From a virus, in the IMG/VR virus record IMGVR_UViG_3300043395_002192, positions 1 through 26,526 of that record: 26,526 nt of DNA; one strand, given 5' to 3'. The notes beneath the pieces are model-generated. The model saw only the letters and a program-made list of their open reading frames with translations, was not told the origin of the DNA and ran no database searches. The translations under genes and the position numbers were made by a program. Positions 1 through 15,890 of this stretch are shown here, piece after piece (the first letter of the stretch is position 1; every line of letters begins with the position of its first letter).

Positions 1-1
1 A

Positions 2-457: not shown

Positions 458-1305
458 CTATTAGTTATAATAGACTAGGATCTAATGGACGCTTGGGAAA
501 CCAAATGTTTCAATATGCTTCTTTGAGAGGTATTGCAGAACATAGGGGGTTTGAATGGATGATTCCAAGACCAGAAAGTTATGGAGATTCTAATTATGGA
601 CTTTTTGATTGCTTTAAGATGTCAACAGTCCAGGAAAAAAATTTTGGAATTTTAGAAGCAGATAGCTATGCTACAGGACAATTCCATTTCTCTAAGGAAT
701 TTTATGATAATTGTCCAGACAATATAAATCTTCATGATCATTTTACGACGGAAAAATATTTCTTAAATGTAGAAGATGTGATCCGACGAGATTATACTTT
801 TAAAGATGAGATTTTAAATCCTTGCAAGGAAATGATCGATAGTTTTGAAAATCCTATATTTCTACATGTTAGAAGAGGAGATTATCTCGCACACCTAGAT
901 GCTCATCCTGTTTGTGCGATTTCATATTATCGAAAAGCTCTAGAGTTTTTCGATAATGATTGTCCTGTTTTTATTTTTTCCGATGATATTGGATGGTGCA
1001 AAGAACAAGAGTTATTTGCTGATGACAGATTTATGGTATCGGAATATAAACAACGTTATCCTCAACTTTCTGATACTTTGTATGGAAAGCAAAAATCATT
1101 GATTCCATATTTTGATTTATGCATGATGTCTCTTTGTGATGGTGGAATTATTGCTAATAGTACATTGAGTTGGTGGGGTGCTTGGCTAATAGAAAACCCA
1201 ACACAACCAATTGTTGCTCCTAATCCTTGGTTTGGGAAATTTTATGACCATTATAATATGAGTGATCTCATTCCCGATGAGTGGATAGAGGTATCTTATG
1301 AATGA
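454..1305 (+). CDS. GT11 alpha-1,2-fucosyltransferase-like glycosyltransferase (copy 1)
   Basis: The 283-residue protein has the GT11 landmarks in order: GRLGNQMFQYASLRGIA near residue 12, the GDP-binding HVRRGDYL near residue 138, and NSTLSWWGAWL near residue 235. Family length is about 270-300, so it looks complete. GT11 enzymes transfer fucose (or a related sugar) from GDP-sugar in the cytoplasm. A GGGGAG ribosome site precedes the ATG, which overlaps the upstream stop as ATGA. A paralogue lies at 2112-2918, with one other glycosyltransferase between them. GT11 membership is firm; donor and acceptor are not known. Confidence 0.9.
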   Translation: MTISYNRLGSNGRLGNQMFQYASLRGIAEHRGFEWMIPRPESYGDSNYGLFDCFKMSTVQEKNFGILEADSYATGQFHFSKEFYDNCPDNINLHDHFTTEKYFLNVEDVIRRDYTFKDEILNPCKEMIDSFENPIFLHVRRGDYLAHLDAHPVCAISYYRKALEFFDNDCPVFIFSDDIGWCKEQELFADDRFMVSEYKQRYPQLSDTLYGKQKSLIPYFDLCMMSLCDGGIIANSTLSWWGAWLIENPTQPIVAPNPWFGKFYDHYNMSDLIPDEWIEVSYE

Positions 1306-2125
1306 TCTTACTTTTTTGATGCCATGTAGAATAGAAAGTAATGATAGACTTAAAAATATTATTACCACAATTGGCTATTTGCATTATAATTTTCCAGAAT
1401 GTTCTATTATTGTAAAAGAACTTGATAAAGAATCTGTATTTACGCAGCAAGTAATTCCAGTCATAAGAAATATTTTTGGATATATCCCAGAAAATTTAAA
1501 TCACATTTATGAAAGGTCTGATGATCCATTTTTTCATAAAACTAGAATTTTAAATGATTTAGTTTTGGCATCTGAAACTGATATAGTTTACAATTACGAT
1601 ATTGACCATTTATTACCAATTGATAGCTATAGAAAAGCACATGAAATGATTAGCAGTGGAAATTACGATGCTGTTTATTGTTATGGAGTAGGAGTATATC
1701 AATATCTTGTAGATTATTCAGTTGAAATGTTCAATGAATTCATTGAATCTAAGTTTGATTTAAATGTTTTGTCTCCTGGTTGTAATATATCTCCTTCCGT
1801 AATGGGGTTAGGGCAAATGATTCGAAGGAGATCGGAAATAGATTCTTATATGTGGAATGAAAATTTTATGGCTTGGGGACCAGAAGATTGTGAATTTTTA
1901 TATAGAATACAGGTTCTAGGATATAAAGTAGGTAGAATAAATGATATATGCTACCATTTAAATCACGAAAGAACATTTAATTCTCACTACCATAATCCAA
2001 AGTGGAAGGAGAATATGGATATTTGGCAAAATATTAGAACGTGGGACAAAAATAAAATAATTGAATATTATGAAAATCAAAATTATGTCAGTGAACGAAG
2101 GAGTTATTTGAATGTTAGCGTTTAA
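1298..2125 (+). CDS. glycosyltransferase, GT2/GT7 galactosyltransferase-like fold
   Basis: This 275-residue protein starts with a strand typical of a GT-A fold (FLMPCRIES). It has an acidic YNYDIDHL motif near residue 103 that fits a metal-binding DxD element. Its C-terminal half carries MAWGPEDCEFLYRIQ and YHLNHERTFNS, resembling the C-terminal galactosyltransferase/GT7 signature (W-G-x-E-D and H-x-x-H). It overlaps the previous gene by 8 nt and is itself overlapped by the next gene by 14 nt, as in a translationally coupled operon. The GT-A assignment is good; the exact family and sugar are inferred only. Confidence 0.78.
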   Translation: MNDLTFLMPCRIESNDRLKNIITTIGYLHYNFPECSIIVKELDKESVFTQQVIPVIRNIFGYIPENLNHIYERSDDPFFHKTRILNDLVLASETDIVYNYDIDHLLPIDSYRKAHEMISSGNYDAVYCYGVGVYQYLVDYSVEMFNEFIESKFDLNVLSPGCNISPSVMGLGQMIRRRSEIDSYMWNENFMAWGPEDCEFLYRIQVLGYKVGRINDICYHLNHERTFNSHYHNPKWKENMDIWQNIRTWDKNKIIEYYENQNYVSERRSYLNVSV

Positions 2126-2918
2126 TCATCTTGGAAAACTGGGCAGACTTGGAAATCAGATGTTTCAATATGCCTCTTTACGAGGTATTGCTAGAAATCG
2201 TGGATATGATTTTTGCATTCCAAGCCACAATCAAGTGGTTAAGGATCCATATGGATTTGACTTGAAGATAGAATTATTTTATCCTTTTGAAATGTCTCAT
2301 GTAAGTTCACGTAATATTAAACTTCTTGATAGGGGATATGCTCCAGTAGCAGAAGAAAAACATTTTCATTTTGATGAACTTCTTTTCCATATGTGTCCAG
2401 ATGAGATTTCTCTTGCTGGATTTTTTCAGTCTGAAAAATATTTCAAACATATTGAAAATGAAATACGCGAAGACTTCACATTCAAGGACAATATTTTTAG
2501 TCCGTGTAAAGAAATGATTGATTCAATCGATGAAGCAATTAGTTTACATGTAAGACGAACTGATTATCTCCAAAATCCAAATCATACTACTTTAGATATG
2601 GATTATTATGAAAAGTCTTTATCTAAAATGGATGATAATCTTCCGATAATAGTTTTTTCTGATGACCCTACATGGTGCAAAGAACAAAAACTTTTTGAAA
2701 GTGATAGATTTATGATATCTGAGTCTAATGATCATTATGTCGATTTGTGTCTTATGACTTTGTGTAAATATCATATTATTGCTAATAGCTCATTTAGTTG
2801 GTGGGGTGCTTGGTTATCAAAATCAAATAAGGTAATTGCACCTTCAAAGTGGTTCGGTGAAGGTAATATAGATAAAAATACTAAAGACTTAATTCCAGAT
2901 AGTTGGACAGTAATATGA
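2112..2918 (+). CDS. GT11 alpha-1,2-fucosyltransferase-like glycosyltransferase (copy 2)
   Basis: Second GT11 gene, 268 residues, with GRLGNQMFQYASLRGIA near residue 10, LHVRRTDYL near 147 and NSSFSWWGAWL near 222. The first motif is identical to copy 1, and KEMIDS and WCKEQ stretches are also shared, so the two are recent paralogues with divergent middle regions. An AAGGAG site lies 8 nt before the ATG. HVRRTDYL replaces HVRRGDYL of copy 1 in the donor site, which may mean a different specificity. The order GT11-GT2-GT11 suggests sequential action on one glycan; this is inference. Confidence 0.9.
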   Translation: MLAFNHLGKLGRLGNQMFQYASLRGIARNRGYDFCIPSHNQVVKDPYGFDLKIELFYPFEMSHVSSRNIKLLDRGYAPVAEEKHFHFDELLFHMCPDEISLAGFFQSEKYFKHIENEIREDFTFKDNIFSPCKEMIDSIDEAISLHVRRTDYLQNPNHTTLDMDYYEKSLSKMDDNLPIIVFSDDPTWCKEQKLFESDRFMISESNDHYVDLCLMTLCKYHIIANSSFSWWGAWLSKSNKVIAPSKWFGEGNIDKNTKDLIPDSWTVI

Positions 2919-3709
2919 TGGATAAAAATAAATCTACTTATAAACTTAAAAATTTTGGGCCAGTATATTATTTGAATCTTGATGATCAACCAGAGAGAAA
3001 AGAGTATATGGAAGATCAATTTAAATATTGGGAAATAGAAAACTATACTCGAATTTCTGCATACGATGGTAGAAACGATGATCTAAGTGATATTATTTCT
3101 GGTAGGTATCCTGAAATGATGACTTCAGGTGAAATTGGATGTGTTACGTCTCATTTGAAAGCAATTAATCATTGGTATAATACCTCTGATAGTCCTTATG
3201 CGATTATCATGGAAGATGACTGTGATATTAGTCTTGCACATTATTGGAATTTTACTTGGTCTGATTTTATTGCAAAAGTTCCTTATTCTTGGGATGTAAT
3301 TCAGCTTGCAATTATTTGTACTGGGAATATTGTTGTTCCAATTCATACAAGATTTGTAAATGATTTTTCTACCGCATGTTATGTAATCACTAGACATCAT
3401 GCTGAAAAATTAATTAAATTCCATATTAGAGGAGAAAAATATAAATTAGATAATGGCGTAAAACCTCGTCCAGTTGCTGACGATCTCATTTATAATTCTG
3501 GATGTACATATGCGACACCTATTTTCTTGTATAAAATTGAATTGGGATCTTCTATTCATCCTGAGCATATTGATATCTTTCATAAAAATAGTTATAGTGG
3601 AATTCTTAATTTCTGGCAACAAGCTGGAGCACAAATGACATTAAATCAAATTACTGATTATGATCCATATCTTGGTAGGATCACAGAACCAACTGGCGAA
3701 GGGTCTTGA
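2915..3709 (+). CDS. GT25-family glycosyltransferase (LPS-biosynthesis type)
   Basis: The protein begins with a VYYLNLDDQPERKEYM strand typical of GT25 enzymes. GEIGCVTSHLKAINHW and the acidic AIIMEDDCDIS motif (metal and nucleotide-sugar binding) follow near residues 70-110. GT25 includes bacterial LPS galactosyltransferases. The ATG at 2915 overlaps the preceding stop, so I prefer it to an upstream in-frame TTG at 2903; an ATG at 2918 is also possible. It is the last gene of the glycan operon. Its 3' end overlaps the -35 box of the porin promoter, so there is no spacer between the two transcription units. Confidence 0.86.
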   Translation: MMDKNKSTYKLKNFGPVYYLNLDDQPERKEYMEDQFKYWEIENYTRISAYDGRNDDLSDIISGRYPEMMTSGEIGCVTSHLKAINHWYNTSDSPYAIIMEDDCDISLAHYWNFTWSDFIAKVPYSWDVIQLAIICTGNIVVPIHTRFVNDFSTACYVITRHHAEKLIKFHIRGEKYKLDNGVKPRPVADDLIYNSGCTYATPIFLYKIELGSSIHPEHIDIFHKNSYSGILNFWQQAGAQMTLNQITDYDPYLGRITEPTGEGS

Positions 3710-3739
3710 CATGCCACGATAATCATGTTAAGATAAATA
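3706..3739 (+). promoter_or_regulatory. composite sigma70 / T4-late-like promoter of the porin gene
   Basis: TTGACA (3706-3711), a 17-nt spacer and TAAGAT (3729-3734) preceded by TGT form a strong sigma70-type promoter with an extended -10. GATAAATA (3732-3739) overlaps the -10 and matches the T4-type late motif NATAAATA. The same fusion is found at psbA. It drives a leader of about 110 nt before the porin ATG. The -35 lies inside the stop region of the preceding gene. Confidence 0.75.
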
Positions 3740-3850
3740 AATCAAGTGACGAATGCCTCAACTACTTGCTGTAGTCGCTTGAACTAACGGAGTTACGTCG
3801 AAACTCCTTACATCCGCAGGTAAACTCTGCGAGAAAATATAGAGGTACTT
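3740..3850 (+). promoter_or_regulatory. structured 5' leader of porin mRNA
   Basis: The leader contains three consecutive inverted repeats. The first has inner arms ACTAC/GTAGT inside a CAAGTG/CGCTTG outer helix around 3743-3782. The second is GGAGTT/AACTCC (3789-3794 with 3802-3807). The third is CGCAG/CTGCG (3815-3819 with 3827-3831). A GAGG ribosome site then lies close to the ATG. None is followed by a T-run, so these look like mRNA-stabilising or translation-control hairpins rather than terminators. No known riboswitch class is recognised. Confidence 0.5.
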
Positions 3851-5335
3851 ATGTTTAAATCCGCTTTCGCAGCAACTCTTGCTGCAACTCCACTTGTCGC
3901 TGGTGCTGCGTTCGCAGAACCTTACGGTCCTTATGTGGATATGCCCCAAGTAACTAGCATCACTCAGTTCTCTGATGTTCGCCCTACTGATTGGGCGTAT
4001 CAGGCACTTAGCAACCTTGTAGAGCGTTATGGTTGCGTTGCTGGTTATCCTAACAGCACCTTTGGTGGTGGATCATCAATGACCCGCTATGAGGCAGCAG
4101 CACTTCTGAATGCTTGCCTCGATCGTGTGACTGAAGTTACCGATGAACTCAAGCGTCTGCAAGCTGAATTTGCTTCCGAACTTGCTGTTCTTCGTGGTCG
4201 TGTTGATAAACTGGAAACTCAGGTTGGTCAACTTGAGGCAACTCAGTTCTCTACTACTACCAAACTGCGTGGTGAAGCTTCTTTCGTTCTGGGTGGTGTT
4301 AGCAACGCTTGGACTCCTGGCGCAACTGCTAGCACGAATGTTGGTGAAACCGCATTCAACTATGACCTTCGCCTGAACTTTGATACTTCGTTTACTGGCA
4401 AAGATCTGCTTCGCACTCGTCTGCGTTCTGGTAACTTCTCAAGCCAACCTTTTGGTTCTTCTGCTTCGCTCTTCAAACTTGATAAAGCAGAATCCACTTC
4501 TGATGCCGTAAAGATTGACCGTCTGTACTATCAGTTCCCTGTTTTTACCAAGGGTCTGACTGCTACTGCTGGTCCTCTGGTTCGTAATACTGAGATTGCT
4601 TGGATTCCTTCCGCATATAAGTCGGAAATCCTTGACTTCTTCCAACTTGCTGGTGCTCCTGGTGTCTATAACAAGGCAACTGGTTCTGGTTTTGGACTCC
4701 AGTATGTTCAACCTGGTAAGAAGGGTGGATTCGTTGCTGGTGTCAACTATGTTGCTCAAAGTGGCGCTGATTCCACTAAAGGTGAGTTCAATGAAACTGG
4801 TGCTCTGAATACGATGGCACAAATCGGTTATCGTGCTCCTCAGTACGGTATTGCCTTTGGTTATCGTTATGGTACTGAAGGAACTCGTGTTCGTACTTAT
4901 AATGGCGTTCTGGGTTCTTCTGGTGTTCTTGCTCCTGGCCAAACCTCTAACGGTTATGCTCTGAGTGCTTATTGGCAACCCAAGACTTCAGGAATTATTC
5001 CTTCGGTCTCTGCTGGTTATGGTTGGAACACCGTAAGTCGCAATGCTCTGAATCAGACTACTCCTAATGGTGCTACCGATTCTCAGACTTGGTATGCTGG
5101 TCTGCAGTGGTCTGATGTGTTTGCTAAGGGTAATGGTGCCGGTTTCGCTATCGGTCAACCTGGCAACGCTGAAGGTCTGTCTAAAGATGCCCTCATGTGG
5201 GAAGCATTCTACAAGTATCGTGTAAGTGATCATATCACGATTACTCCTGCTGTATTTTATGTTTCTAACAATCAGGCATTTGCAGGTGCATCTTCTAATT
5301 ACGGAGCAGTGGTTCAAACAAAATTTACTTTTTGA
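3851..5335 (+). CDS. cyanobacterial-type outer-membrane porin (SLH domain + OprB-like beta-barrel)
   Basis: The 494-residue protein has a signal peptide of about 22 residues ending A-F-A. An SLH domain (about residues 36-95, FSDVRPTDWAYQALSNL ... RYEAAALLNACLDR) follows, then a heptad-rich coiled coil (about 93-131) and a long Gly/aromatic-rich barrel ending in terminal phenylalanine (QTKFTF), the outer-membrane insertion signal. This matches host Som-type porins that anchor to peptidoglycan-linked polymer through SLH and form pores for small solutes or iron. Codon use and G+C are visibly higher than in the neighbouring glycosyltransferases, suggesting acquisition from a host. Strong promoter, own leader and terminator make it a single-gene unit. 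It is intact in length and frame. Its role in infection (nutrient influx, receptor masking or replacement of host porin) is inference. Confidence 0.92.
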   Translation: MFKSAFAATLAATPLVAGAAFAEPYGPYVDMPQVTSITQFSDVRPTDWAYQALSNLVERYGCVAGYPNSTFGGGSSMTRYEAAALLNACLDRVTEVTDELKRLQAEFASELAVLRGRVDKLETQVGQLEATQFSTTTKLRGEASFVLGGVSNAWTPGATASTNVGETAFNYDLRLNFDTSFTGKDLLRTRLRSGNFSSQPFGSSASLFKLDKAESTSDAVKIDRLYYQFPVFTKGLTATAGPLVRNTEIAWIPSAYKSEILDFFQLAGAPGVYNKATGSGFGLQYVQPGKKGGFVAGVNYVAQSGADSTKGEFNETGALNTMAQIGYRAPQYGIAFGYRYGTEGTRVRTYNGVLGSSGVLAPGQTSNGYALSAYWQPKTSGIIPSVSAGYGWNTVSRNALNQTTPNGATDSQTWYAGLQWSDVFAKGNGAGFAIGQPGNAEGLSKDALMWEAFYKYRVSDHITITPAVFYVSNNQAFAGASSNYGAVVQTKFTF

Positions 5336-5348
5336 GTAATAAATAATA

Positions 5349-5409
5349 TTACCTGACTTGTTCGCACTTTTCAGGTAAAGATTGGAGGGCAGAAATGTCC
5401 TCCTTTCTT
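5349..5409 (+). terminator. double hairpin terminator after the porin gene
   Basis: Hairpin 1 has arms TTACCTGA (5349-5356) and TCAGGTAA (5371-5378). Hairpin 2 has arms GGAGGGCA (5384-5391) and TGTCCTCC (5396-5403) with a GAAA tetraloop and a following TTTCTT tract. The second hairpin is the likely rho-independent terminator. Confidence 0.8.
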
Positions 5410-5410
5410 G

Positions 5411-5418
5411 TATAAATA
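5411..5418 (+). promoter_or_regulatory. T4-late-like promoter box TATAAATA
   Basis: An exact TATAAATA lies two bases after the terminator tail. No convincing coding gene starts just downstream; hli begins 210 nt later. It may give a late hli transcript or a short untranslated RNA, or be a chance match in AT-rich DNA. Confidence 0.4.
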
Positions 5419-5566
5419 GTATTGCGAACAAGTTAGAGTAGAACTATGACTTCCCAAAGTCCAAGAGTATATACTTATAAAATCACCACAAGGCACGACT
5501 TGCTGTGAACCGTATCGGTCAGTAAACTGTAAGCATTTATACTTAAAAAAGTTAAGAGATGCTGAC
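5419..5566. other. non-coding stretch between porin terminator and hli promoter
   Basis: No convincing gene is seen; a 20-codon ATG frame at 5445 has no support. The stretch TGCGAACAAGTTA (5423-5435) is complementary over 13 positions (one G-U) to 5354-5366, in the loop of terminator hairpin 1, so a long-range RNA helix is possible in read-through transcripts. Confidence 0.5.
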
Positions 5567-5603
5567 ATGGGGGGTTGACAACTTCCCATTTTTGATATAT
5601 ACT
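5567..5603 (+). promoter_or_regulatory. terminator-like hairpin fused to sigma70 promoter of hli
   Basis: TTGACA (5575-5580), 17-nt spacer, TATACT (5598-5603). The -35 box sits in the loop of an inverted repeat ATGGG (5567-5571) / CCCAT (5586-5590) followed by a run of T, with an inner GTTG/CAAC pair. The arrangement resembles the module at 22893-22929 closely. Confidence 0.75.
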
Positions 5604-5630
5604 TCTGTAACAGTTCTTTACAAAACTTAT

Positions 5631-5840
5631 ATGACTGTAACAAAAAACGAATTTGGACAAATGAATATGTGGGCAAAAGAACCTTCTATGTACATGACTA
5701 AAGAAGATCTTGAGCGTTATGGTATTGAACCTTATGCAGAACGGGCACAAAGAGCAAATTCTAGATGGGCTATGATTGGAATTATTTCTGGTATTATTTC
5801 TTATAGTCTTACTGGAAATCTTTTCTTTGGTATCTTCTGA
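5631..5840 (+). CDS. hli: high-light-inducible protein (Hli), copy 1
   Basis: This 69-residue protein ends with AERAQRANSRWAMIGIISG and a single transmembrane helix, the chlorophyll a/b-binding-like Hli motif (E-x-x-N-x-R-x-A-M). Hli proteins sit in the thylakoid membrane, bind chlorophyll and carotenoid, and protect photosystem II during assembly or excess light. ATG 5631 is chosen because it lies just downstream of the promoter; longer in-frame starts overlap the promoter. No clear Shine-Dalgarno site is visible. The stop overlaps the next small gene as ATGA. The motif has S where the family usually has G (N-S-R instead of N-G-R). Confidence 0.88.
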   Translation: MTVTKNEFGQMNMWAKEPSMYMTKEDLERYGIEPYAERAQRANSRWAMIGIISGIISYSLTGNLFFGIF

Positions 5841-5926
5841 TGACTGAAGCAATTTTTACTGTAACCAGTGTTGTATTTTTGGTGCTTCTAAGTTTTTCTG
5901 TAGAGAAACTTTGCGAAACTTATTAA
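5840..5926 (+). CDS. 28-residue single-helix membrane peptide between two hli genes
   Basis: The frame starts at an ATG overlapping the hli stop (ATGA) and ends at TAA 5926. The product is MTEAIFTV..., one hydrophobic helix at about residues 5-21 and a charged V-E-K-L-C-E tail. Size and topology recall small photosystem or cytochrome b6f subunits, but I do not recognise a family. The tight coupling to hli and the helical product argue that it is real. Confidence 0.6.
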   Translation: MTEAIFTVTSVVFLVLLSFSVEKLCETY

Positions 5927-5968
5927 AACATATCATACTAATTTAAATAATTATTAATGGAGGAAAAC

Positions 5969-6091
5969 ATGAAAAATTTTGGATGGACTAAATCTGCTGA
6001 ACTTCTTAATGGAAGAGTTGCTATGCTATCATTTGTAGTCATGGTAATTGTGTATTTGAAAACTGGACAGCTAATTCCAACTATTTGGTGA
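5969..6091 (+). CDS. hli: high-light-inducible protein (Hli), copy 2
   Basis: The frame encodes 40 residues with a strong GGAGGA site 6 nt before the ATG. The sequence has the compact Hli core: GWTKSAELLNGRVAMLSFVV followed by a helix and TGQLIP, matching A-E-x-x-N-G-R-x-A-M and the conserved TGQ end. This is the canonical short phage Hli type, unlike the longer copy 1 with N-S-R. It is the last gene of the hli unit and is followed by a strong terminator. Role: photoprotection at photosystem II in the thylakoid. Confidence 0.92.
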   Translation: MKNFGWTKSAELLNGRVAMLSFVVMVIVYLKTGQLIPTIW

Positions 6092-6112
6092 GCTTAGTTT
6101 TAAGATAAATTT

Positions 6113-6151
6113 TAAACTCTGTTTCTAAATAAGAAACAGAGTTTATTTTTT
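6113..6151 (+). terminator. rho-independent terminator after hli unit
   Basis: Arms AAACTCTGTTTCT (6114-6126) and AGAAACAGAGTTT (6132-6144) form a 13-bp stem with a 5-nt loop followed by ATTTTTTT. Confidence 0.93.
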
Positions 6152-6152
6152 T

Positions 6153-6311
6153 ATGCCTAGAAATCAAATTACAAAAGATGAGATTAAATGCCTGATTTTA
6201 AAACAAAAACATAAACTTATAACTGAACCATATTATACTAGTGATCCAAAAGCAATGGCAAATAGACACTTAAATGAATTACTAGATAGAATAGAGGAAT
6301 ACAGGTATTAA
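6153..6311 (+). CDS. hypothetical protein, 52 residues
   Basis: The frame runs from ATG (just after the terminator tail) to TAA. The product MPRNQITKDEIKCL... is charged and predicted helical, with no membrane segment. It ends 4 nt before the C39 peptidase gene, so the two may be co-transcribed. A GAGG within its 3' end may serve as ribosome site for the next gene. Family not recognised; similar small proteins are common in cyanomyoviruses. Confidence 0.6.
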   Translation: MPRNQITKDEIKCLILKQKHKLITEPYYTSDPKAMANRHLNELLDRIEEYRY

Positions 6312-6315
6312 AAAA

Positions 6316-7014
6316 ATGACAATAGATCTTTATAACTTCTTCTTGCATTTCGATCCTAAAAATCCAAAACACGTTGCTGCTGTAGAACAATTTGGGAAAG
6401 ATTTGCTTCTTAAAGCAGAGGAGTTAATGCAAGATGAAGCAAATTGGGTAAGAATTTACAGAACAAAAGAAGAAAAACCACAAGCATCAATCTTACCAGT
6501 TCCTTATTATCCACAGACTGATAATTACAGAGATGCAAACCGAACCTGTAATTCTTCTTCTTGTGCAATGTGTTTAGAGTATTTTAAACCAGGAACTTTA
6601 AAAGGAGCAAAAGGTGATGATGCCTACGTTCAAAAAGTTTTTGCAATTGGTGACTCAACAGATCACGTTGTTCAAACCCGTGTTCTGGCGTCTTACGGAG
6701 TTAATTCACATTTTAGTTACGGTCTTTCTTTTTCTGACCTTGATCGTGAGCTTGCTGCTGGGAGACCCGTCGTTATTGGCATTCTTCATCGCGGTTCTTT
6801 ATCTGCACCTACTGGTGGGCACATGGTTGTAGTGATTGGTAAAACTCCATCAGGAGATTATGTAGTAAATGATCCTTATGGAAGTTTAAATGATGGTTAT
6901 ACTGGTGCAGTATTAAATGGAAAAGGTGCTGTGTATAAGAAGAGTGAACTTGCTCGTAGATGGTGTCCTGGTGGAAATGATGGTTGGGGTCGTATCTTTG
7001 ATATCAAACCATAA
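6316..7014 (+). CDS. C39-like cysteine peptidase / papain-fold hydrolase
   Basis: The 232-residue protein has a catalytic-type segment RTCNSSSCAM (Cys78), a histidine in GGHMVVVIG (about His169) and an aspartate in NDPYG (about Asp186), the Cys-His-Asp order of the C39-like (Peptidase_C39_2) family. VPYYPQTDN just before the Cys is also typical. No signal peptide or membrane segment is seen; about 60 N-terminal residues precede the domain. Such domains occur in phage cell-wall hydrolases and in processing peptidases. It converges with, and overlaps by 11 nt, the thermonuclease gene on the other strand. Endolysin function is possible but unproven. Confidence 0.8.
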   Translation: MTIDLYNFFLHFDPKNPKHVAAVEQFGKDLLLKAEELMQDEANWVRIYRTKEEKPQASILPVPYYPQTDNYRDANRTCNSSSCAMCLEYFKPGTLKGAKGDDAYVQKVFAIGDSTDHVVQTRVLASYGVNSHFSYGLSFSDLDRELAAGRPVVIGILHRGSLSAPTGGHMVVVIGKTPSGDYVVNDPYGSLNDGYTGAVLNGKGAVYKKSELARRWCPGGNDGWGRIFDIKP

Positions 7015-7345
7015 AAGGAACTGCCACACCCTCAGTTAACATTCTTTGGTTAATAGTAGCAGTATCTCCAGTAACATAAAGAGTTCCGAGTATTCTTCCA
7101 TACTTATCCTCTTTAGTTGTTTCAATCATCCACTCTCCTTCACGGGAGAGTTCTTTTTTTAGCCATTCTTTGGCGACAAGACCTTTTTCTTTCTCTTCTG
7201 TGCTTAAAGTTCTTGTTTCTGCAGCATTAATACCTTTTAGTCTGACTCTTTGTGAGATTGTCAAACCAAATCCTAAATCGATATCAACATCAACTGTGTC
7301 ACCATCAACAATTTTTTTGATCTTTTTGATTTTGTACTGATACAT
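7004..7345 (-). CDS. thermonuclease / staphylococcal-nuclease-like protein
   Basis: The 113-residue protein contains the SNase pattern: VDGDTVDVDIDLGFG, then RVRLKGINAAETRT (Arg and Glu of the active site), then YGRILGTLYV (second Arg). This fold cleaves DNA or RNA with calcium. ATG at 7345 is preferred over one 15 codons upstream because homology begins right after it; that upstream stretch overlaps the adjacent membrane-protein gene. No signal peptide is present, so it probably acts inside the cell, perhaps on host nucleic acid. It is the last gene of a four-gene minus-strand cluster. Confidence 0.88.
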   Translation of the reverse strand: MYQYKIKKIKKIVDGDTVDVDIDLGFGLTISQRVRLKGINAAETRTLSTEEKEKGLVAKEWLKKELSREGEWMIETTKEDKYGRILGTLYVTGDTATINQRMLTEGVAVPFMV

Positions 7346-7445
7346 TTTCTTGATTTGCGATTTGTAAAATTTTATAGATGACCCAAGCAACTCCTATGAG
7401 TCCTATTCCTAACATTATATTGACTGACCAAACTATCTCTCCCAT
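7305..7445 (-). CDS. small single-pass membrane protein, 46 residues
   Basis: Read on the minus strand from ATG at 7445 to TGA at 7305. The product MGEIVWSVNIMLGIGLIGVA... has one transmembrane helix (about residues 5-27) and a polar Gln/Asn/Lys-rich tail. It overlaps the thermonuclease start by 41 nt in another frame. Position in the compact cluster supports it. Function unknown; a holin-like or membrane-anchor role is only a possibility. Confidence 0.6.
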   Translation of the reverse strand: MGEIVWSVNIMLGIGLIGVAWVIYKILQIANQENVSVQNQKDQKNC

Positions 7446-7447
7446 AA

Positions 7448-7702
7448 TTAATTCTCTTCTATTCTAGTTTTTAATGCAATGATTGTAGTTAAAATTGATA
7501 ATAGAGTATCATATCCTCTTCTTTCAGATTCTTTGCAATCTAAAGGAGGAGGATTTTTTAATCCACCTAGAACATTTGATCTGTTAATTGATCCTGGAAT
7601 CATAAAATTACAGGAAATAAAATTAATACCAACGAACGTAACAACTGAAAAACAAACAACAAAAATTAATTTATTGAAATTTAAATTATTTTTTGTTGTC
7701 AT
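7448..7702 (-). CDS. membrane-anchored or secreted hypothetical protein, 84 residues
   Basis: The N-terminus has basic residues followed by a hydrophobic segment (about residues 12-30) ending F-I-S-C, a near-lipobox with Cys31, so a signal-anchored or lipoprotein form is plausible. The rest is polar with a P-P-P stretch and a hydrophobic C-terminal helix (LLSILTTIIAL). The ATG follows the upstream stop at once (TGAATG), with an AGAGGGG site. Small membrane protein plus lipoprotein-like protein next to a possible wall hydrolase would fit a lysis group, but this is inference. Confidence 0.6.
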   Translation of the reverse strand: MTTKNNLNFNKLIFVVCFSVVTFVGINFISCNFMIPGSINRSNVLGGLKNPPPLDCKESERRGYDTLLSILTTIIALKTRIEEN

Positions 7703-7894
7703 TCATTTCCCCTCTTGTTTGTGTATCCAAGTCTTAAGTTCGTGTAAATATTTTCTTAATATATCTGCTTTTTCTAAATGCCAAATATCACCACTTATGA
7801 AATACTCATGAGTGTGATTATCTATTGCTTTTAGAATTTGATGTATTGGTGCGTTCCACTTTTCTCTATGTGGAGTATTGAAGGTGCGTGACAT
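7703..7894 (-). CDS. hypothetical protein, 63 residues
   Basis: First gene of the minus-strand cluster. The ATG at 7894 is preceded by AGAAGG. The product MSRTFNTPHREKWN... is rich in His and Trp, predicted mostly helical, without a membrane segment. It is translationally coupled to the 84-residue gene. A GATAAATA late-like box lies about 20 nt upstream on the same strand. Family not recognised. Confidence 0.65.
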   Translation of the reverse strand: MSRTFNTPHREKWNAPIHQILKAIDNHTHEYFISGDIWHLEKADILRKYLHELKTWIHKQEGK

Positions 7895-7913
7895 TAAATG
7901 TGCCTTCTTTATT

Positions 7914-7921
7914 TATTTATC
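7914..7921 (-). promoter_or_regulatory. late-like promoter box GATAAATA (minus strand)
   Basis: Read on the minus strand it matches NATAAATA and stands 20 nt before the first gene of the minus cluster. It forms a divergent pair with the plus-strand box at 7935-7942. Confidence 0.5.
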
Positions 7922-7934
7922 AATTATTATCCGA

Positions 7935-7942
7935 AATAAATA
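7935..7942 (+). promoter_or_regulatory. late-like promoter box AATAAATA (plus strand)
   Basis: It matches NATAAATA and lies 22 nt before the ATG at 7965, suiting late expression of the internal-protein candidate and virion gene downstream. It also reads TATAAT close by (7941 on), so a sigma70 -10 element is an alternative. Confidence 0.5.
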
Positions 7943-7964
7943 TAATATAAGAAGATCAAGACAT

Positions 7965-8297
7965 ATGAAAACATACAAACAATTTATTTCTGAAAATGTA
8001 AATATTTCTGGTAATGCTTCTGTAGGAACTTTAATTATTAATGGTTCTGAAGAACAAGCGTCTCAGCCAGTTGGAGAGCAATTTTATGCTGATTTTATGT
8101 GGGAAGGAAACATCTATAGGATTGAACTGATTTCTGATTCTAATAATCTTCCATCTAGAGAAAAACTTGCAGAGCAAATTCAAAATGAATATCCTGGAGC
8201 AATTGTGCATAACATATATCCAGCATTAGGAACAAATAATCCTTATAAAGTTTCAGACATAAAGAGATATCACCCAGCAAAATTAGATTGGATTTGA
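7965..8297 (+). CDS. candidate phage internal protein with T4-type capsid-targeting sequence
   Basis: This 110-residue protein starts MKTYKQFISE, nearly the same as the capsid-targeting sequence MKTYQEFIAE of T4 internal proteins I, II and III. In T4 that peptide directs proteins into the prohead and is cut after its Glu by the gp21 protease, whose sites end in (I/L)-x-E. Here I-S-E precedes Asn11, leaving a mature protein of about 100 residues. ATG 7965 is chosen because of this match; a longer in-frame start lies at 7878 and would overlap the divergent gene. The rest (beta-rich, then an NEYPGAIVHNIYP segment) is not recognised. The next gene is a probable virion protein. Delivery into the host with the DNA is inference. 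Confidence 0.72.
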   Translation: MKTYKQFISENVNISGNASVGTLIINGSEEQASQPVGEQFYADFMWEGNIYRIELISDSNNLPSREKLAEQIQNEYPGAIVHNIYPALGTNNPYKVSDIKRYHPAKLDWI

Positions 8298-8305
8298 GGT
8301 AAATA

Positions 8306-9628
8306 ATGGCTCAGTGGAATAAGCATAAACAAGATTATTTGAATCAAGAAAGATCTCTTTTTGAAGTTAATAATATAGCTACAAAAGATGGTAGAATAGT
8401 AGATGATTATAATAGATTTCCTGTTACTATAAATTCAGATGCATTTGGAAGAACAAGAGTATCAAGTCCATTAACACTCTTTGATTCTTCTCATAGATAT
8501 AGAGATAATAATCTTTGGGACAGTCTGGTTATAGGAACTGGTTCTACTGTTGGTTTTGTAACTACTCAAGGGCTAGTTGATATTGGCATTGGAACTACTG
8601 CTGGTTGTTCTGTGATTAGAGAAACAACAAAAACATTTTCTTATCAGCCAGGAAAATCTTTATTAATTATGAATACATTTGTGATGAATGAACCAAAGCA
8701 AAATTTGAGACAAAGAGTTGGATATTTTGGTTCAGATAATGGAATGTATTTTGAGGTAGATGGAACTATAGCATATTTCGTAGAAAGAAGTTTATCAACT
8801 GGAACAGAAACTAAAGTACCACAGACAGATTGGAATATTGACAAATTAGATGGAACTGGAGTTTCTGAAATTACGTTAGATCCATCTAAAGCCCAAATTC
8901 TTTGGATGGATATTGAATGGTTGGGCCTCGGGACGGTTAGACTTGGCTTTGTAATTGATGGTCAGTTTATACACGCACATTCATTTCACCATGCAAATAT
9001 AATTCAATCAACATACATTACAACTGCATGTCTTCCAATGAGGTACGAGTTGAGTAATACTGGAGTGACTACCAGCCCTAGTAACATGAAGCAGGTTTGT
9101 TCTTCTGTGATTTCTGAGGGGGGTTACGAACTTCGTGGATTGCAACAAGCAGTTTCGACACCAATTCAATCCCCAATAGATTTGCCAAGTGCAGGAACAT
9201 ATTATCCAATAATTTCAATTCGTTTGAAATCGCCAGTTAATGGACAGCCAGATAGATTGGATGCTATTGTCATTTTAACAGCATTATCTTTGATGGGAAC
9301 TGGGAATGGTCCAAAATATAATTGGCAAATAAGAGCTAGTGGAATTACGTCTGGTGGAATATGGAATAGTGCTGGGTCGGATAGTGCGGTAGAATATAAA
9401 ATTGATGGAGGAACTATAAGTGGAGGAAGAATCTTAGCATCAGGATTTCTTACTTCTGCCAACCAATCAACTCCAACAATTGATATTCTTAAAGAAGCAC
9501 TTTTTAAATTCCAGCTTGAAAGAAATGGTTTAACTCAAGTTCCTTATGAATTGACTTTAGTTGCTTCTTCAGATACTGCTGGAGCAGATATTTTTGCTTC
9601 TATGGATTGGGAAGAATTTAGTAGATAG
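8306..9628 (+). CDS. probable virion structural protein (440 residues)
   Basis: Long beta-rich protein with many Gly, Ser and Thr residues and no signal peptide or membrane segment. It begins MAQWNKHKQDYLNQ and has a mid-region rich in aromatic beta-strands. GAGG precedes the ATG by 8 nt. It follows the internal-protein candidate by 8 nt, so both probably share the late-like promoter. Long proteins of this composition in cyanomyoviruses are often virion-associated, possibly tail or fibre-related; I cannot name a T4 counterpart. Assignment rests on composition and context. Confidence 0.6.
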   Translation: MAQWNKHKQDYLNQERSLFEVNNIATKDGRIVDDYNRFPVTINSDAFGRTRVSSPLTLFDSSHRYRDNNLWDSLVIGTGSTVGFVTTQGLVDIGIGTTAGCSVIRETTKTFSYQPGKSLLIMNTFVMNEPKQNLRQRVGYFGSDNGMYFEVDGTIAYFVERSLSTGTETKVPQTDWNIDKLDGTGVSEITLDPSKAQILWMDIEWLGLGTVRLGFVIDGQFIHAHSFHHANIIQSTYITTACLPMRYELSNTGVTTSPSNMKQVCSSVISEGGYELRGLQQAVSTPIQSPIDLPSAGTYYPIISIRLKSPVNGQPDRLDAIVILTALSLMGTGNGPKYNWQIRASGITSGGIWNSAGSDSAVEYKIDGGTISGGRILASGFLTSANQSTPTIDILKEALFKFQLERNGLTQVPYELTLVASSDTAGADIFASMDWEEFSR

Positions 9629-9629
9629 T

Positions 9630-9743
9630 TTATTTTTTCTTACCCCCATTTTTTGCTTTTTTCGCAGTCGCATTTCCTTGATTTTGTTTTGACTGCTTTC
9701 CGCCAGAAGAACCTTTTTTACCTTTGTTTGGCGACTTAGACAT
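9630..9743 (-). CDS. 37-residue very basic Lys/Gly/Ser-rich protein
   Basis: Read on the minus strand from ATG 9743 to TAA 9630, with AAGGA 9 nt before the start. The product MSKSPNKGKKGSSGG... contains about 13 lysines, few hydrophobic residues and no aromatic ones; it should be disordered and may bind nucleic acid. It converges on the virion gene with one base between stops and diverges from psbA, whose -35 is only 36 nt away. Confidence 0.7.
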   Translation of the reverse strand: MSKSPNKGKKGSSGGKQSKQNQGNATAKKAKNGGKKK

Positions 9744-9778
9744 TAGTAGTCCTTATGATTATCATATTATTTAGGGGC

Positions 9779-9812
9779 TTGACAGACTCGTAAAGATCTG
9801 TTACAATAAATA
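9779..9812 (+). promoter_or_regulatory. composite sigma70 / T4-late-like promoter of psbA
   Basis: TTGACA (9779-9784), 17-nt spacer, TACAAT (9802-9807) with TGT before the -10. AATAAATA (9805-9812) overlaps the -10 and matches NATAAATA. The same layout is seen at 3706-3739. An ACAGA/TCTGT dyad spans the spacer in the same place as an ACATG/CATGT dyad in the porin promoter. Confidence 0.8.
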
Positions 9813-9976
9813 CATCAACAGGTTAAGAAATGTAACAGGTTCTTAATGTTGTCCTCTTCCTAACCGAGACCTATGGGGAGGTTAAACACAGTCTCTCATA
9901 CCCACAATGGAGGGTGTTGTGGGAATATCTGTACCGTTCAGTTCCCCCTGAATTTTTACTTACCCTTTTAACAAAA
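9813..9976 (+). promoter_or_regulatory. psbA 5' leader with repeats and hairpin
   Basis: The roughly 160-nt leader has two direct copies of AACAGGTT (9817-9824 and 9834-9841) and a hairpin with arms CCCACAA (9901-9907) and TTGTGGG (9917-9923). No clear Shine-Dalgarno site precedes the ATG at 9977. It may control message stability or light-dependent translation, as psbA leaders do in hosts; this is inference. Confidence 0.5.
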
Positions 9977-11314
9977 ATGACTGCTACAATTTCACAACAA
10001 CGACAACTTAATACTTGGGATCAGTTCTGTGACTGGGTTACTTCAACGAACAACCGCCTTTATGTTGGTTGGTTCGGTGTATTACTTATTCCATGCCTTC
10101 TTGTTGCTACTTCAGTTTTTATTATTGCTTTTATTGCAAATCCGCCAGTAGATATTGATGGTATCCGAGAACCCGTTTCTGGGTCTTTAATGTGGGGAAA
10201 CAACATCATTTCTGGTGCTGTCGTTCCTTCTTCTAATGCTATTGGACTACACTTGTATAATCTTTGGGATGCTGCTTCTATTGATGAGGCACTTTACAAT
10301 GGGTGGGCATATCAAGCAGTAGTATTCCATTTTCTTATCGGAATTTATGCTTATATGGGTCGTGAATGGGAACTTTCTTACCGACTGGGTATGCGTCCTT
10401 GGATTTGTGTCGCTTACTCAGCTCCTGTTGCCGCTGCTACTGCTGTTTTCCTGGTCTACCCCTTTGGACAGGGTTCCTTCTCTGATGGAATGCCGCTTGG
10501 GATTTCTGGCACTTTTAACTACATGCTTGTATTCCAGGCAGAACACAACATTCTTATGCATCCTTTCCACATGCTGGGAGTTGCTGGGGTCTTCGGTGGT
10601 TCTCTTTTCTCTGCTATGCACGGATCTCTTGTCACCTCTAGTCTTGTACGTGAGACGACAGAAAATGAGTCCCAGAATTATGGATACAAGTTCGGACAAG
10701 AAGAAGAAACATACAACATCGTAGCAGCACACGGTTATTTCGGTCGCCTTATTTTCCAATATGCTTCCTTCAATAACTCACGTTCTCTGCACTTCTTTTT
10801 AGCGGCGTGGCCCGTTGTGGGCATCTGGTTTGCTGCTCTTGGTGTTTCTACGATGGCTTTTAATCTCAACGGACTGAATTTCAACCAGAGTATTCTGGAT
10901 AGTCAAAACCGAGTAATTCCTACTTGGGCTGATATTCTGAATCGTGGTGGACTTGGAATGGAGGTAATGCACGAACGGAACGCTAGATTTGTTGGTGTTC
11001 TTGCCTAGTAATAGGCATTAGTAAAATCGGGTTAAACGGGGAAACTCTCAAGTAGACAATCCCGTACCAAGTCAGAAAGGGTTTAAGTTTTCTGAAAGGT
11101 CTAACGACTAGGTAGTGAGTCCCAACAATAATCTACCCACGAATGCCCGACTCCTTAATAAACATAAGGATGAAGAGATAGTCTGAACTTACTGGTGACA
11201 GTAAGAAGTAAAGAATAAAGAGTCTTTACGGTAACATAATTGCACAATTTCCCACTTGACCTTGCTAGTGTAGAAGCAACACCAGTTGCTCTTACTGCTC
11301 CTTCAATCGGTTGA
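9977..11314 (+). CDS. psbA: photosystem II D1 protein, split by a group I intron (join 9977-10984, 11243-11314)
   Basis: Joining exon 1 (336 codons) and exon 2 (23 codons plus stop) gives exactly 359 residues, the usual cyanobacterial D1 precursor length. Key residues fall at standard positions: Tyr161, Asp170, Glu189-His190, His198, His215, Ser264 and His272; His332 and Glu333 are in exon 1, while His337, Asp342 and the C-terminal tail with processed Ala344 are in exon 2. Residue 130 is Glu, the high-light D1 form. The start is ATG 9977 ([10 protein letters not shown]); an upstream in-frame ATG at 9914 adds non-D1 residues. D1 turns over rapidly in light, and a phage copy sustains photosynthesis during infection. 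Unspliced mRNA would read seven intron codons and stop at 11008. Confidence 0.97.
10985..11242 (+). mobile_element. group I self-splicing intron in psbA (258 nt)
   Basis: Exon end GAACGCT pairs with intron GGTGTTC (10994-11000) as P1, with the conserved U-G at the splice site. P2 is TGCCTA/TAGGCA (11002-11007 with 11012-11017). P7 is GACTA (11106-11110) with TAGTC (11179-11183), in the typical contexts AACGACTA and AGATAGTC. P9 is CTTACTG/CAGTAAG with a GTGA loop (11188-11205). The intron ends with the required G at 11242. It has no internal gene. D1 reads through perfectly once it is removed. psbA group I introns are known from Synechococcus phage S-PM2 relatives. Confidence 0.95.
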
Positions 11315-11341
11315 TATAACAACTGAATATGTGATATAATT

Positions 11342-11366
11342 AAGAGACCTTCGGGTCTCTTTTTTT
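11342..11366 (+). terminator. rho-independent terminator after psbA
   Basis: Arms AAGAGACC (11342-11349) and GGTCTCTT (11354-11361) close a TTCG tetraloop, followed by a T-run. Confidence 0.95.
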
Positions 11367-11373
11367 ATAAATA
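11366..11373 (+). promoter_or_regulatory. T4-late-like promoter box TATAAATA before the endonuclease
   Basis: An exact TATAAATA uses the last T of the terminator tail and lies 26 nt before the endonuclease ATG, a normal late-promoter distance. Confidence 0.65.
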
Positions 11374-11399
11374 GTTATGGAAAGTTATGAGCAACTTAT

Positions 11400-11996
11400 A
11401 TGGATTTGCACGAATTAGTAATAAATGAATGTGAAAGACGAGGGCTGGAACTAATATATCTTCCAGAAAAACTTGTGCGTCGTTCTACTGATGTGATTGT
11501 TAGTTGCCCTTGTACAGGAAAAAGAAATATGAGTATAAGAAACTTTATTGTGACTTATGAGAAAGGTGGTGAAGCGTTTTGCTGTAAAAGAAAATCAAAA
11601 GTTGGAAAAAACAATCCAGCATTTGGAAAACCAACTTGGAATGCTGGAACTGTTGGTGTATCAAAAAGTTATGGATTTTTTGGGTTTAAGGAGGAATGGT
11701 CTGATAGAGAAGATTATTTGTATTTTATAGAAACTACATATGGAACCTACAAAATAGGTAGGTCTTTTCACGGAATAAAATATCGTTTTACTGAAACTAC
11801 AAAAGAACTTGGTGAATGGAAAGCAACTCATAAAGAAGTATTTGATTGTGAAAGATACATATTGAACACATATAAACAATATCAAAAAAAGATTGATGGT
11901 ATAATTGGAGGGTCTGAACATTTCACAAAAGATTTGCCCATAGATAAAGTTATAGAATACGCTAATAGCAATTTGCAGAAAAATTATGTCTCATAA
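11400..11996 (+). CDS. free-standing GIY-YIG-like homing endonuclease
   Basis: The 198-residue protein has a Cys-rich N-terminal part (CPC near residue 36, CC at 61-62), then a NUMOD3-like segment VGKNNPAFGKPTWNAG (about 68-83) found in DNA-binding parts of homing endonucleases. DYLYFIETTYGTYKIGRSF (about 105-123) resembles a GIY-YIG core, with a Glu/Asn region downstream and GGSEHF near residue 170. It is not inside the intron but directly after intron-bearing psbA. A free-standing endonuclease cutting the intron-insertion site of psbA (F-CphI) has been described in related phages; whether this is the same family is not established here. Confidence 0.75.
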   Translation: MDLHELVINECERRGLELIYLPEKLVRRSTDVIVSCPCTGKRNMSIRNFIVTYEKGGEAFCCKRKSKVGKNNPAFGKPTWNAGTVGVSKSYGFFGFKEEWSDREDYLYFIETTYGTYKIGRSFHGIKYRFTETTKELGEWKATHKEVFDCERYILNTYKQYQKKIDGIIGGSEHFTKDLPIDKVIEYANSNLQKNYVS

Positions 11997-12105
11997 ACCT
12001 CAACACGAACCTATGGAACCCTGGGTAGTTTGGGCAGGTGTAGGAATAATGGGATTCACTATTATTGTGTTTGTAGTATTCACCTTAAGTATGATGTACT
12101 TTTAA
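11986..12105 (+). CDS. 39-residue single-helix membrane protein
   Basis: The ATG at 11986 overlaps the endonuclease end by 11 nt and the frame runs to TAA 12105. The product MSHKPQHEPMEPWVV... has a polar 11-residue head and one long hydrophobic helix (about 13-37). Head and helix resemble small thylakoid subunits, but no family is recognised. It probably belongs to the same transcription unit as the endonuclease and the next tiny gene. Confidence 0.6.
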   Translation: MSHKPQHEPMEPWVVWAGVGIMGFTIIVFVVFTLSMMYF

Positions 12106-12109
12106 GCAT

Positions 12110-12178
12110 ATGATGTTTATTCTCGCAGTCTTTATTCTTTTTGGCATTTTTATGTTCATAATGTCTATGATAGAATAA
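12110..12178 (+). CDS. 22-residue hydrophobic peptide (tentative)
   Basis: Two consecutive ATG codons at 12110 and 12113 open a frame of MMFILAVFILFGIF... ending M-I-E and TAA 12178. It is one transmembrane helix. It lies 4 nt after the previous membrane-protein gene and before a terminator, so the reading is plausible. Too short to judge by coding statistics. Confidence 0.4.
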   Translation: MMFILAVFILFGIFMFIMSMIE

Positions 12179-12201
12179 TATGTTCGATTCATGACAATTC
12201 A

Positions 12202-12229
12202 TTGACAGCCAAAAAGAACTCCTTATAAT
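12202..12229 (+). promoter_or_regulatory. near-consensus sigma70 promoter of talC operon
   Basis: TTGACA (12202-12207), 16-nt spacer, TATAAT (12224-12229). Expected start of transcription near 12236 gives a leader of only about 18 nt before talC. Confidence 0.85.
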
Positions 12230-12253
12230 TACTAATGAGTTCTTTCTTTTTTT
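12213..12253 (+). terminator. terminator hairpin whose loop holds the talC -10 box
   Basis: Arms AAAGAACTC (12213-12221) and GAGTTCTTT (12237-12245) enclose a 15-nt loop containing TATAAT, followed by a T-run. It would stop read-through from upstream, but transcripts starting at the internal promoter lack the left arm and so escape it. Confidence 0.8.
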
Positions 12254-12916
12254 ATGAAGATCTTTTTAGATACAGCAGACGTTTCACTTATCGGTTCAGC
12301 ATACGACACAGGATTACTTGATGGTGTCACTACAAATCCATCATTAATTCTCAAAAGTGGCAGACAACTTCAAGAAGTTATTAATGAGATTGCAAATATA
12401 TTTCCAGAGTTAGAAAGCATTTCGGCAGAAGTCGTTGCAGATACTGCAGAGGAAATGCTTACAGAAGCAAAGAATTATTACACAATTTCACCAAGTGTTA
12501 CCATCAAAGTTCCTTGTACTGTAGAAGGACTGAAGGCGTGTAAGTTCCTATCAAAGCAAGGAATCAAAACTAACGTAACTTTAGTGTTCTCGGTAGCACA
12601 GGCAATTCTTGCATCAAAAGCAGGAGCAACATTCATCTCACCATTCGTAGGTCGTTGGATGGATAACTCAATTGATGGTATTGAGTTGATTAAAAATATC
12701 CGTAAGGTATTTGACCGCTCAGGTACATCTACACAAATTCTTGCAGCATCTCTTCGTGATGTAAGGCAAGTAGAACAATCTGCTCTTAATGGTGCAGATG
12801 TGGTTACAATTCCTCCAGTAGTATTCTGGGCGATGTATAAGAACATTATGACTGAGAAAGGACTGGAGTTATTCCAAAGGGATTGGGAGGAAGTTCTTAA
12901 GAGTAAGGGTGAATGA
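12254..12916 (+). CDS. talC: transaldolase, short TalC/FSA-type
   Basis: The 220-residue protein has DGVTTNPSLI (about 23-32), catalytic IKVPCT with Schiff-base Lys85, and a C-terminal segment like other small TalC proteins. Glu59 stands where fructose-6-phosphate aldolases of this fold have Gln, which favours true transaldolase chemistry (moving a dihydroxyacetone unit between sugar phosphates). It feeds the pentose phosphate pathway in the host cytoplasm. The start has no Shine-Dalgarno site, only a U-rich leader. The stop overlaps zwf by 4 nt. Confidence 0.96.
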   Translation: MKIFLDTADVSLIGSAYDTGLLDGVTTNPSLILKSGRQLQEVINEIANIFPELESISAEVVADTAEEMLTEAKNYYTISPSVTIKVPCTVEGLKACKFLSKQGIKTNVTLVFSVAQAILASKAGATFISPFVGRWMDNSIDGIELIKNIRKVFDRSGTSTQILAASLRDVRQVEQSALNGADVVTIPPVVFWAMYKNIMTEKGLELFQRDWEEVLKSKGE

Positions 12917-14238: not shown

Positions 14239-14247
14239 GAGAAAGTT

Positions 14248-15377: not shown

Positions 15378-15389
15378 ATCCGGTTTTTA

Positions 15390-15424: not shown

Positions 15425-15470
15425 TGATTAAGAAAAAAATTGATTTTTTTGATGACTGTAATTATGTTTA

Positions 15471-15889: not shown

Positions 15890-15890
15890 T

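Follow-up and report, generated by a model that had tools for sequence, protein, structure and literature searches.

A fixed-spacing composite of sigma70-type and T4-type late promoter sequences precedes psbA and membrane-protein genes in cyanophages

In the window examined here, which is the entire IMG/VR record IMGVR_UViG_3300043395_002192 (one fragment of 26,526 bases), the psbA gene, encoding D1, and a porin gene are each preceded by a TTGACA hexamer that leads, after 17 nucleotides (nt), into TAnnATAAATA. This arrangement merges the -10 hexamer of a sigma70-type promoter with a box of the T4 late type, raising the question of whether it is one regulatory element, whether it truly connects the two genes, and which polymerase would read it at what stage of infection. 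A preliminary description of the sequence had proposed transcription by the host sigma70 polymerase early and by the phage late apparatus afterwards, with expression through the whole infection. We find that TTGACA-N17-TAnnATAAATA is a real phage element and that the link it makes between psbA and the porin is genuine. Judged from sequence comparison, both halves of the composite are probably functional, one as a host-sigma70 promoter and the other as a gp55-type promoter overlapping it; the polymerase assigned to each and the time of its use are inferred from the motifs.

At the porin, TTGACA (3706-3711) is followed by TAAGATAAATA (3729-3739), and at psbA TTGACA (9779-9784) is followed by TACAATAAATA (9802-9812), exactly where the preliminary description had placed them, and the 17-nt spacer and the TGT ahead of the -10 were likewise confirmed at both genes. 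Bases 3707-3709 of the porin -35 double as the TGA stop of the preceding glucosyltransferase-like open reading frame (ORF). Scored against the sigma70 consensus, the porin site reaches 10/12 and the psbA site 11/12, and both have the TTGACA, a spacer within 16-18 nt and the TAnnnT of a sigma70-type early promoter. Both also carry the T4-type late box NATAAATA about one helical turn before the start, the start being the predicted one, and the two elements overlap in register at each gene, as in an overlapping early/late promoter. T4 late promoters have no conserved -35, whereas TTGACA stands at exactly 17 nt at both sites, which were therefore classed as composites and not as plain late promoters. 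With the late box placed at -13 to -6 as in T4 (PMC1524935), the predicted starts are 3741 (sigma70) and 3745 (gp55-type) at the porin, and 9814 (sigma70) and 9818 (gp55-type) at psbA. A purine occupies the equivalent of 9814 in 54 of 55 spacer-17 psbA composites, and the G of the TGT triplet is kept in 41/55.

The window holds no third exact copy, as had been claimed, and relaxing the spacer to 16-18 nt or the A of the box to any base adds none. A one-mismatch composite at 25370-25403 (TTGACA-N17-TATAATACATA, in which the full sigma70 consensus TATAAT is followed by ACATA) sits shortly 5' of an exonuclease-like ORF at 25421 (phrog_298). The bases following the two sites, CATCAA and AATCAA, had been noted as alike; CATCAAC is indeed the consensus at psbA, but porin relatives have GACCGA, CGTTCT, AACCGA, TGTTCT or CCGTGA in this place, so the likeness is incidental and a third shared element was rejected. 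Near-consensus sigma70 pairs without a late box occur at 5575-5603, near a high-light-inducible gene, and at 12202-12229, before talC; neighbouring host-like genes thus differ in promoter type.

Set against chance expectation, a comparison suggested at the outset, TTGACA-N17-TAnnATAAATA occurs twice in the window and 0.00 times on average in 100 dinucleotide shuffles. In a set of six cyanophage genomes (Syn9, S-PM2, P-HM2, S-SM2, S-SRM01 minus its last 842 bases, and S-PRM1), TTGAC stands at spacer 17 before 11 of 36 TAnnATAAATA and at the remaining spacers between 5 and 39 only once in all (binomial P 6e-24 for the spacer-17 excess, at a TTGAC frequency of 0.00124 per position), and 0 composites arose when the six genomes were simulated three times with a first-order Markov model. 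Conversely, of 114 TTGAC-N18-TAnnAT, 11 continue into AAATA, compared with 36 of 16252 TAnnAT overall. In these genomes the late box is also, on its own, a genuine motif of promoter positions: of 301 ATAAATA, 166 lie 10-80 nt 5' of an ORF start as placed by a simple ORF caller (20.1 expected), while the controls TAATAATA and TTTATATA do so in 5/172 (5.9 expected) and 3/63 (1.7 expected).

The distribution of the composite was followed in 22 cyanophage records, searched with TTGAC-N18-TAnnATAAATA and with a C variant ending in TAnnCTAAATA. Eight were chosen for a window-like psbA upstream region (Sf-FS3, S-RSM4, S-CAM9, S-PRM1, Sf-CH5, DSL-LC03, S-SCSM2R and ACG-2014f), ten by psbA protein alone (Syn9, S-WAM1, S-SM2, S-SKS1, P-HM2, P-SSM4, S-CRM01, S-CAM1, S-CAM4 and S-RIM8), and four entered via the porin or its leader (S-SRM01, S-PM2, S-CREM1 and S-SSM7). 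The exact pattern has 26 sites in 18/22 records and its reversal none; the C variant has 7 sites in 6/22, with one reversed-pattern match. These 33 sites were assigned to psbA (18), a small outer-membrane protein (OMP; 9), other ORFs (3) and, once each, the S-SRM01 porin, S-PM2 psbD and P-SSM4 talC. Of the 21 records (among the 22) in which psbA was inspected, 18 show the composite at this gene, the exceptions being ACG-2014f, P-SSM4 and S-CRM01. Among the ten phages chosen by psbA protein alone, eight carry the A or C form, all except P-SSM4 and S-CRM01.

Hosts differ. The composite motif was found in 0/41 picocyanobacterial genomes (the family around one picocyanobacterial genome), and a sigma70 pair with AAATA is present in 37/75 usable IMG/VR viral psbA upstream regions versus 1/78 from hosts, that one weak (hosts mostly filamentous cyanobacteria; five viral and two host rows dropped before the count). 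On these figures a host origin of the psbA promoter was rejected. Within a set of psbA leaders from IMG/VR, cultured phages and the window (three identical and two short ones dropped), the spacer-17 composite precedes 45 of the 50 distinct leaders that have the core of the PhotoRC-II RNA, a 46th having spacer 18, and 10 of the 47 that do not; only two of the 50 show a sigma70 pair at spacer 17 without AAATA.

The link can also be approached from the motif, and this is the strongest of the tests. A scan of viral contigs, from any virus and with no genes chosen, gave at least 120 stretches, with 123 sites among the matches listed; the motif is short, and these counts are uninformative on rarity and were used for the motif-to-gene test only. 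The gene that immediately follows on the same strand is psbA at 23 of the listed sites, OMP at five and the porin at three, whereas on the upstream side these genes are found at none and talC at two. Because 31/123 sites listed, with no genes chosen, precede psbA, OMP or porin, the psbA-porin link is considered genuine. When the downstream ORFs were clustered, the single-strand DNA-binding protein gp32 (phrog_224, PF08804) followed six listed sites (contigs L032, L041, L045, L049, L063 and L066), a late-transcription sigma factor (phrog_12791, phrog_234) three (L026, L035 and L102; two of the proteins are 83 and 90% identical to the third), and Hsp20 and HNH two each. At the same listed loci, non-composite late-type sites lie within 300 nt of three psbD and one gp32 gene (433 sites), and sigma70-only sites within 300 nt of three gp32 and one OMP gene (159 sites), a comparison that is not independent since the loci were chosen for having a composite. 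gp32 is used throughout T4 infection, and a composite before gp32 and the late sigma factor, as found in other phages, agrees with a requirement both early and late; before the sigma factor, its presence suggests that the factor is started early and amplifies itself.

On the reading we prefer, each site would be two promoters overlapped in one fixed register. The host sigma70-type holoenzyme would read TTGACA-N17-TAnnAT, often with an extended -10 TGn, and NATAAATA, which shares its first three bases with the end of the -10, would be read by gp55 and the sliding clamp as the late holoenzyme of the phage. Transcription would start shortly after entry and then pass to the late enzyme with a shift in start of at most about 4 nt; as the predicted starts are 4 nt apart, the same structured leader would head the mRNA in both phases, PhotoRC-II at psbA and a two-hairpin leader at the porin. 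This early/late design, proposed in the preliminary description, agrees with the finding that phages, unlike hosts, keep both halves together at a fixed register, with the promoter position of the late box, with natural variants that keep one half only, and with the same reading published for psbA (PMC5931967, in the section on its promoter). The accompanying claim of expression through the whole infection, as against a middle peak, stands less well, and we give it somewhat under an even chance.

Several observations weigh against this reading. In the P-HM2 time course (PMC5082946), all auxiliary metabolic genes including psbA belong to the middle cluster, a poor fit to whole-infection expression, and P-HM2 psbA has the composite promoter. 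Such timing fits an overlapping early/late promoter of the RB49 kind (PMC2984593) better than flat expression. gp55, gp33 and gp45 were not identified among the window proteins scanned, which come from a 26.5-kb fragment; cyanomyoviruses are reported to have g55, g33 and g45 homologues (PMC2984593). Within the window neither half exceeds chance by itself (ATAAATA, 12 sites with 13.7 expected; sigma70-like pairs, 75 with 77.0 expected over positions 1-20000), so only the fused register carries weight. In the contig scan, 92 of the 123 sites listed precede none of psbA, psbD, porin, OMP and talC, and the bare motif must therefore also occur by chance or before other genes. Lastly, a minority of 56 distinct IMG/VR porin upstream regions (24 identical ones removed before counting) have the composite, seven exact and one as the C variant, as do 17/68 upstream regions of the OMP family (nine identical and three short ones dropped).

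Many of the 48 porin upstream regions without a composite retain the sigma70 pair, followed by bases other than AAATA. At three loci (L251, L283 and L294) the converse is seen: a tRNA-Gly gene replaces the porin -35, and ACTAAATA is retained in the same place before the same leader. The sigma70 and late halves are thus gained and lost separately at porins, the pattern expected of two promoters. In the OMP family, 31/68 upstream regions have a spacer-17 sigma70 pair without the composite and 20/68 have neither, while [AC]TAAATA occurs somewhere within 330 nt upstream in 50/68. The porin is rare in cultured phages (six records by tblastn, with at least 80% of the porin covered in two, both S-SRM01), and the S-SRM01 porin is preceded by a composite. 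Fusion of the halves is one solution among several; it is almost fixed at psbA and optional at membrane-protein genes. tRNA-Gly (TCC) genes lie directly 5' of the porin in place of the promoter at L258 as well as at the three loci above, and also upstream of some OMP genes (L480, L541).

The sites might instead be ordinary strong host-type sigma70 promoters, with AAATA acting as an AT-rich opening aid and the late enzyme making no use of them. The TTGACA, the 17-nt spacer and an extended -10 near consensus agree with this, as do the many porin relatives that retain the sigma70 half alone and the description of T4 late promoters without a conserved -35 (PMC2988020). It is an unlikely account, given the enrichment of AAATA behind TTGAC-N18-TAnnAT relative to TAnnAT in general, the PhotoRC-II psbA leaders in which the two halves nearly always go together, the host psbA promoters without AAATA, and the promoter position of ATAAATA itself. 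Another view would make the composite a third class, a cyanophage middle promoter with its own timing, read by one modified holoenzyme instead of two enzymes. The middle clustering of psbA and the other auxiliary metabolic genes of P-HM2 (PMC5082946) speaks for it, and so do the report of cyanomyoviruses without motA and asiA homologues and the overlapping early/late promoters proposed there for RB49 and S-PM2 middle genes (PMC2984593); according to the same source, quantitative PCR (Q-PCR) on a few S-PM2 genes showed no middle timing. P-HM2 has three composites, two exact and one C variant, before psbA, an OMP gene and a short ORF; so small a number cannot account for its whole middle class, and sigma70 and late halves also occur apart, which leaves this view quite unlikely.

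Chance, or recent copying of one promoter region to the other inside the genome, would suit the presence of only two copies in the window and the chance-level frequency of ATAAATA alone. The 100 shuffles gave none, the two sites resemble each other neither in their 17-nt spacers nor in their leaders, and other phages have separate relatives of each site at the gene concerned. Together with the phage distribution, fixed spacing, absence from hosts and motif-to-gene test, these points make such an origin highly improbable.

Downstream of the porin promoter, the leader contains a conserved two-hairpin RNA, common to the porin and the OMP family (PF24653 Phage_OMP, phrog_417) and almost always kept; it is better conserved than the porin composite promoter. 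Leaders were extracted at 94/98 loci, the other four lacking the CATC[CT] extraction anchor, so that the anchor is partly enforced, and thinning of those at least 90% alike reduced 82 leaders from IMG/VR and cultured cyanophages to 63, which were aligned. Two-sided changes occur at 9/11 pairs of the hairpins; 96.9% of cells are paired versus 77.5% after shuffling, with 154 two-sided changes versus 41.1, and pairing is destroyed when the partner is slid. Folded as a single sequence, the window leader forms both hairpins (-28.3 kcal/mol, z -1.95). A model built on the leader gives one strong match each in 16/22 cyanophage genomes, preceding an OMP gene in all 13 forward-readable loci of the 16. 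Run against the window with filters off and E up to 1, it gave one other match (22877-22922, 14.3 bits), taken as chance. By eye, a linear motif of about GCCTCAAyTAyTyGC lies 5' of both hairpins (3755-3769 in the window; also L148, L490 and others).

Rfam does not include this RNA. Region 3700-3900 has 0 matches up to E 5 among 4227 Rfam models, and the leader loci of seven relatives have none at the gathering cut-off; with no Rfam match, and with the leader model missing the psbA leader, a relationship to PhotoRC-II or the glutamine riboswitch was discarded. In hosts the model found 0/4 genomes and, with stricter filters in 41 genomes, three matches in two genomes at chance level (E 0.036-0.057), so a host origin is unsupported. 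No earlier description was found in the open-licence literature searched, and the porin/OMP leader counts, apart from the promoter, as a candidate new RNA family. The psbA leader of the window is a full-length member of PhotoRC-II (RF01717). In it, the hairpin-1 loop GAGAC (9866-9870) can pair with a downstream GUCUC (9891-9895), a possible pseudoknot absent from the Rfam structure line; after psbA leaders at least 90% alike were thinned from 53 to 41, the variable pair is G-C in 36 and A-U in five, one of these (S-CRM01) after a one-column shift, with 0 mismatches.

The Pfam and PHROG matches of the window proteins give the gene set of a T4-type cyanophage: glycosyltransferases, the porin, a high-light-inducible protein, a virion structural protein and psbA, together with talC, zwf, gnd, AdoMet decarboxylase, Thy1 and PhoH (features of the two loci in Table 1). 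A group I intron lies close to the psbA 3' end (10975-11242; RF00028 match 10975-11205). The ORF that follows it (11400-11996) has 0 Pfam or PHROG matches and presumably encodes a GIY-YIG-like protein, judging by its sequence. The arrangement resembles the intron and homing endonuclease described for S-PM2 psbA (PMC5931967). A glutamine riboswitch (RF01739, 22704-22756) stands ahead of a short ORF from 22786, of about 33 codons by eye.

Table 1 Positions of promoter elements, leader RNAs and genes at the porin and psbA loci of the window
Feature	Position	Strand	Evidence
Glucosyltransferase-like ORF	2903-3709	+	phrog_2835, ORF list
Porin -35, TTGACA	3706-3711	+	Sequence, pattern match
Porin TGT, extended -10-like triplet	3726-3728	+	Sequence; promoter scan flags TG before -10
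Porin sigma70-type -10, TAAGAT	3729-3734	+	Sequence, pattern and promoter scan
Porin T4-type late box GATAAATA, overlapping the -10	3732-3739	+	Sequence, pattern; positional enrichment in six cyanophages
Porin 5' leader, about 110 nt	3741-3850	+	Fold, homologous leaders
Two-hairpin leader RNA, conserved	3780-3841	+	Alignment, covariation; model match 3780-3839, 66.6 bits
Leader helix 1 (loop has GUCGA)	3789-3794 with 3802-3807	+	Alignment, covariation
Leader helix 2 (followed by GAGG, 3842-3845)	3815-3819 with 3827-3831	+	Alignment, covariation
Porin gene, SLH domain and OprB barrel, 494 aa	3851-5335	+	Pfam PF04966, PF00395
psbA -35, TTGACA	9779-9784	+	Sequence, pattern match
psbA TGT, extended -10-like triplet	9799-9801	+	Sequence
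psbA sigma70-type -10, TACAAT	9802-9807	+	Sequence, pattern and promoter scan
psbA T4-type late box AATAAATA, overlapping the -10	9805-9812	+	Sequence, pattern
PhotoRC-II leader RNA of psbA	9841-9936	+	Rfam RF01717, 73 bits (gathering 39)
psbA (D1) ORF, first exon to about 10987, reading on into group I intron	9977-11008	+	Pfam PF00124

For psbA, the composite promoter and its early/late reading are already published: motifs 3 and 6 of the cyanomyovirus psbA promoter (PMC5931967, ISME J 2018) are a sigma70 -35/-10 with a Gp55 site inside the -10, from which that paper, too, concludes that psbA is expressed early and late. Section 6 of that paper covers psbA only. What is added here is the membership of the porin and OMP, the statistics on the fixed spacing, the absence of the element from hosts and the test from motif to gene; these and the leader RNA appear new relative to the literature searched. 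The overlapping promoters proposed for RB49, S-PM2 and Syn9 likewise join early and late elements in T4-type phages without MotA/AsiA; that proposal (PMC2984593) concerns homologues of T4 middle genes, whereas the present architecture is a rigid 34 bp at host-like and membrane genes. With the T4 late promoter (gp55/gp33/gp45; PMC1524935) the composites share the NATAAATA box, but their near-perfect TTGACA sets them apart from the T4 form (PMC2988020). The Phage_OMP family, of about 120 aa as opposed to the 494-aa SLH/OprB porin that the window encodes, shares the leader RNA with that porin and, in some members, the composite as well.

We tentatively propose, with the scales tipped slightly against it, that marine T4-type phages have a distinct fused-promoter regulon with a new phage-specific structured leader on its membrane-protein branch. 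In this joint proposal, genes needed before and after the late switch would share TTGACA-N17-TAnnATAAATA, with psbA, psbD, OMP and the porin as members, joined in other phages by gp32 and the late sigma factor; the latter would be started by the host enzyme and then amplified by its own product, and the leader RNA of the membrane branch would control its mRNA after transcription. The analysis makes of two sites a regulatory class that is defined and can be searched for, predicts that transcription at both psbA and the porin starts at two points 4 nt apart, and brings out an undescribed leader RNA in 16 of the 22 cyanomyovirus genomes examined. If true, the proposal would connect the supply of D1 with remodelling of the outer membrane of the host and explain how phages without MotA/AsiA keep chosen genes on across the early-late switch.

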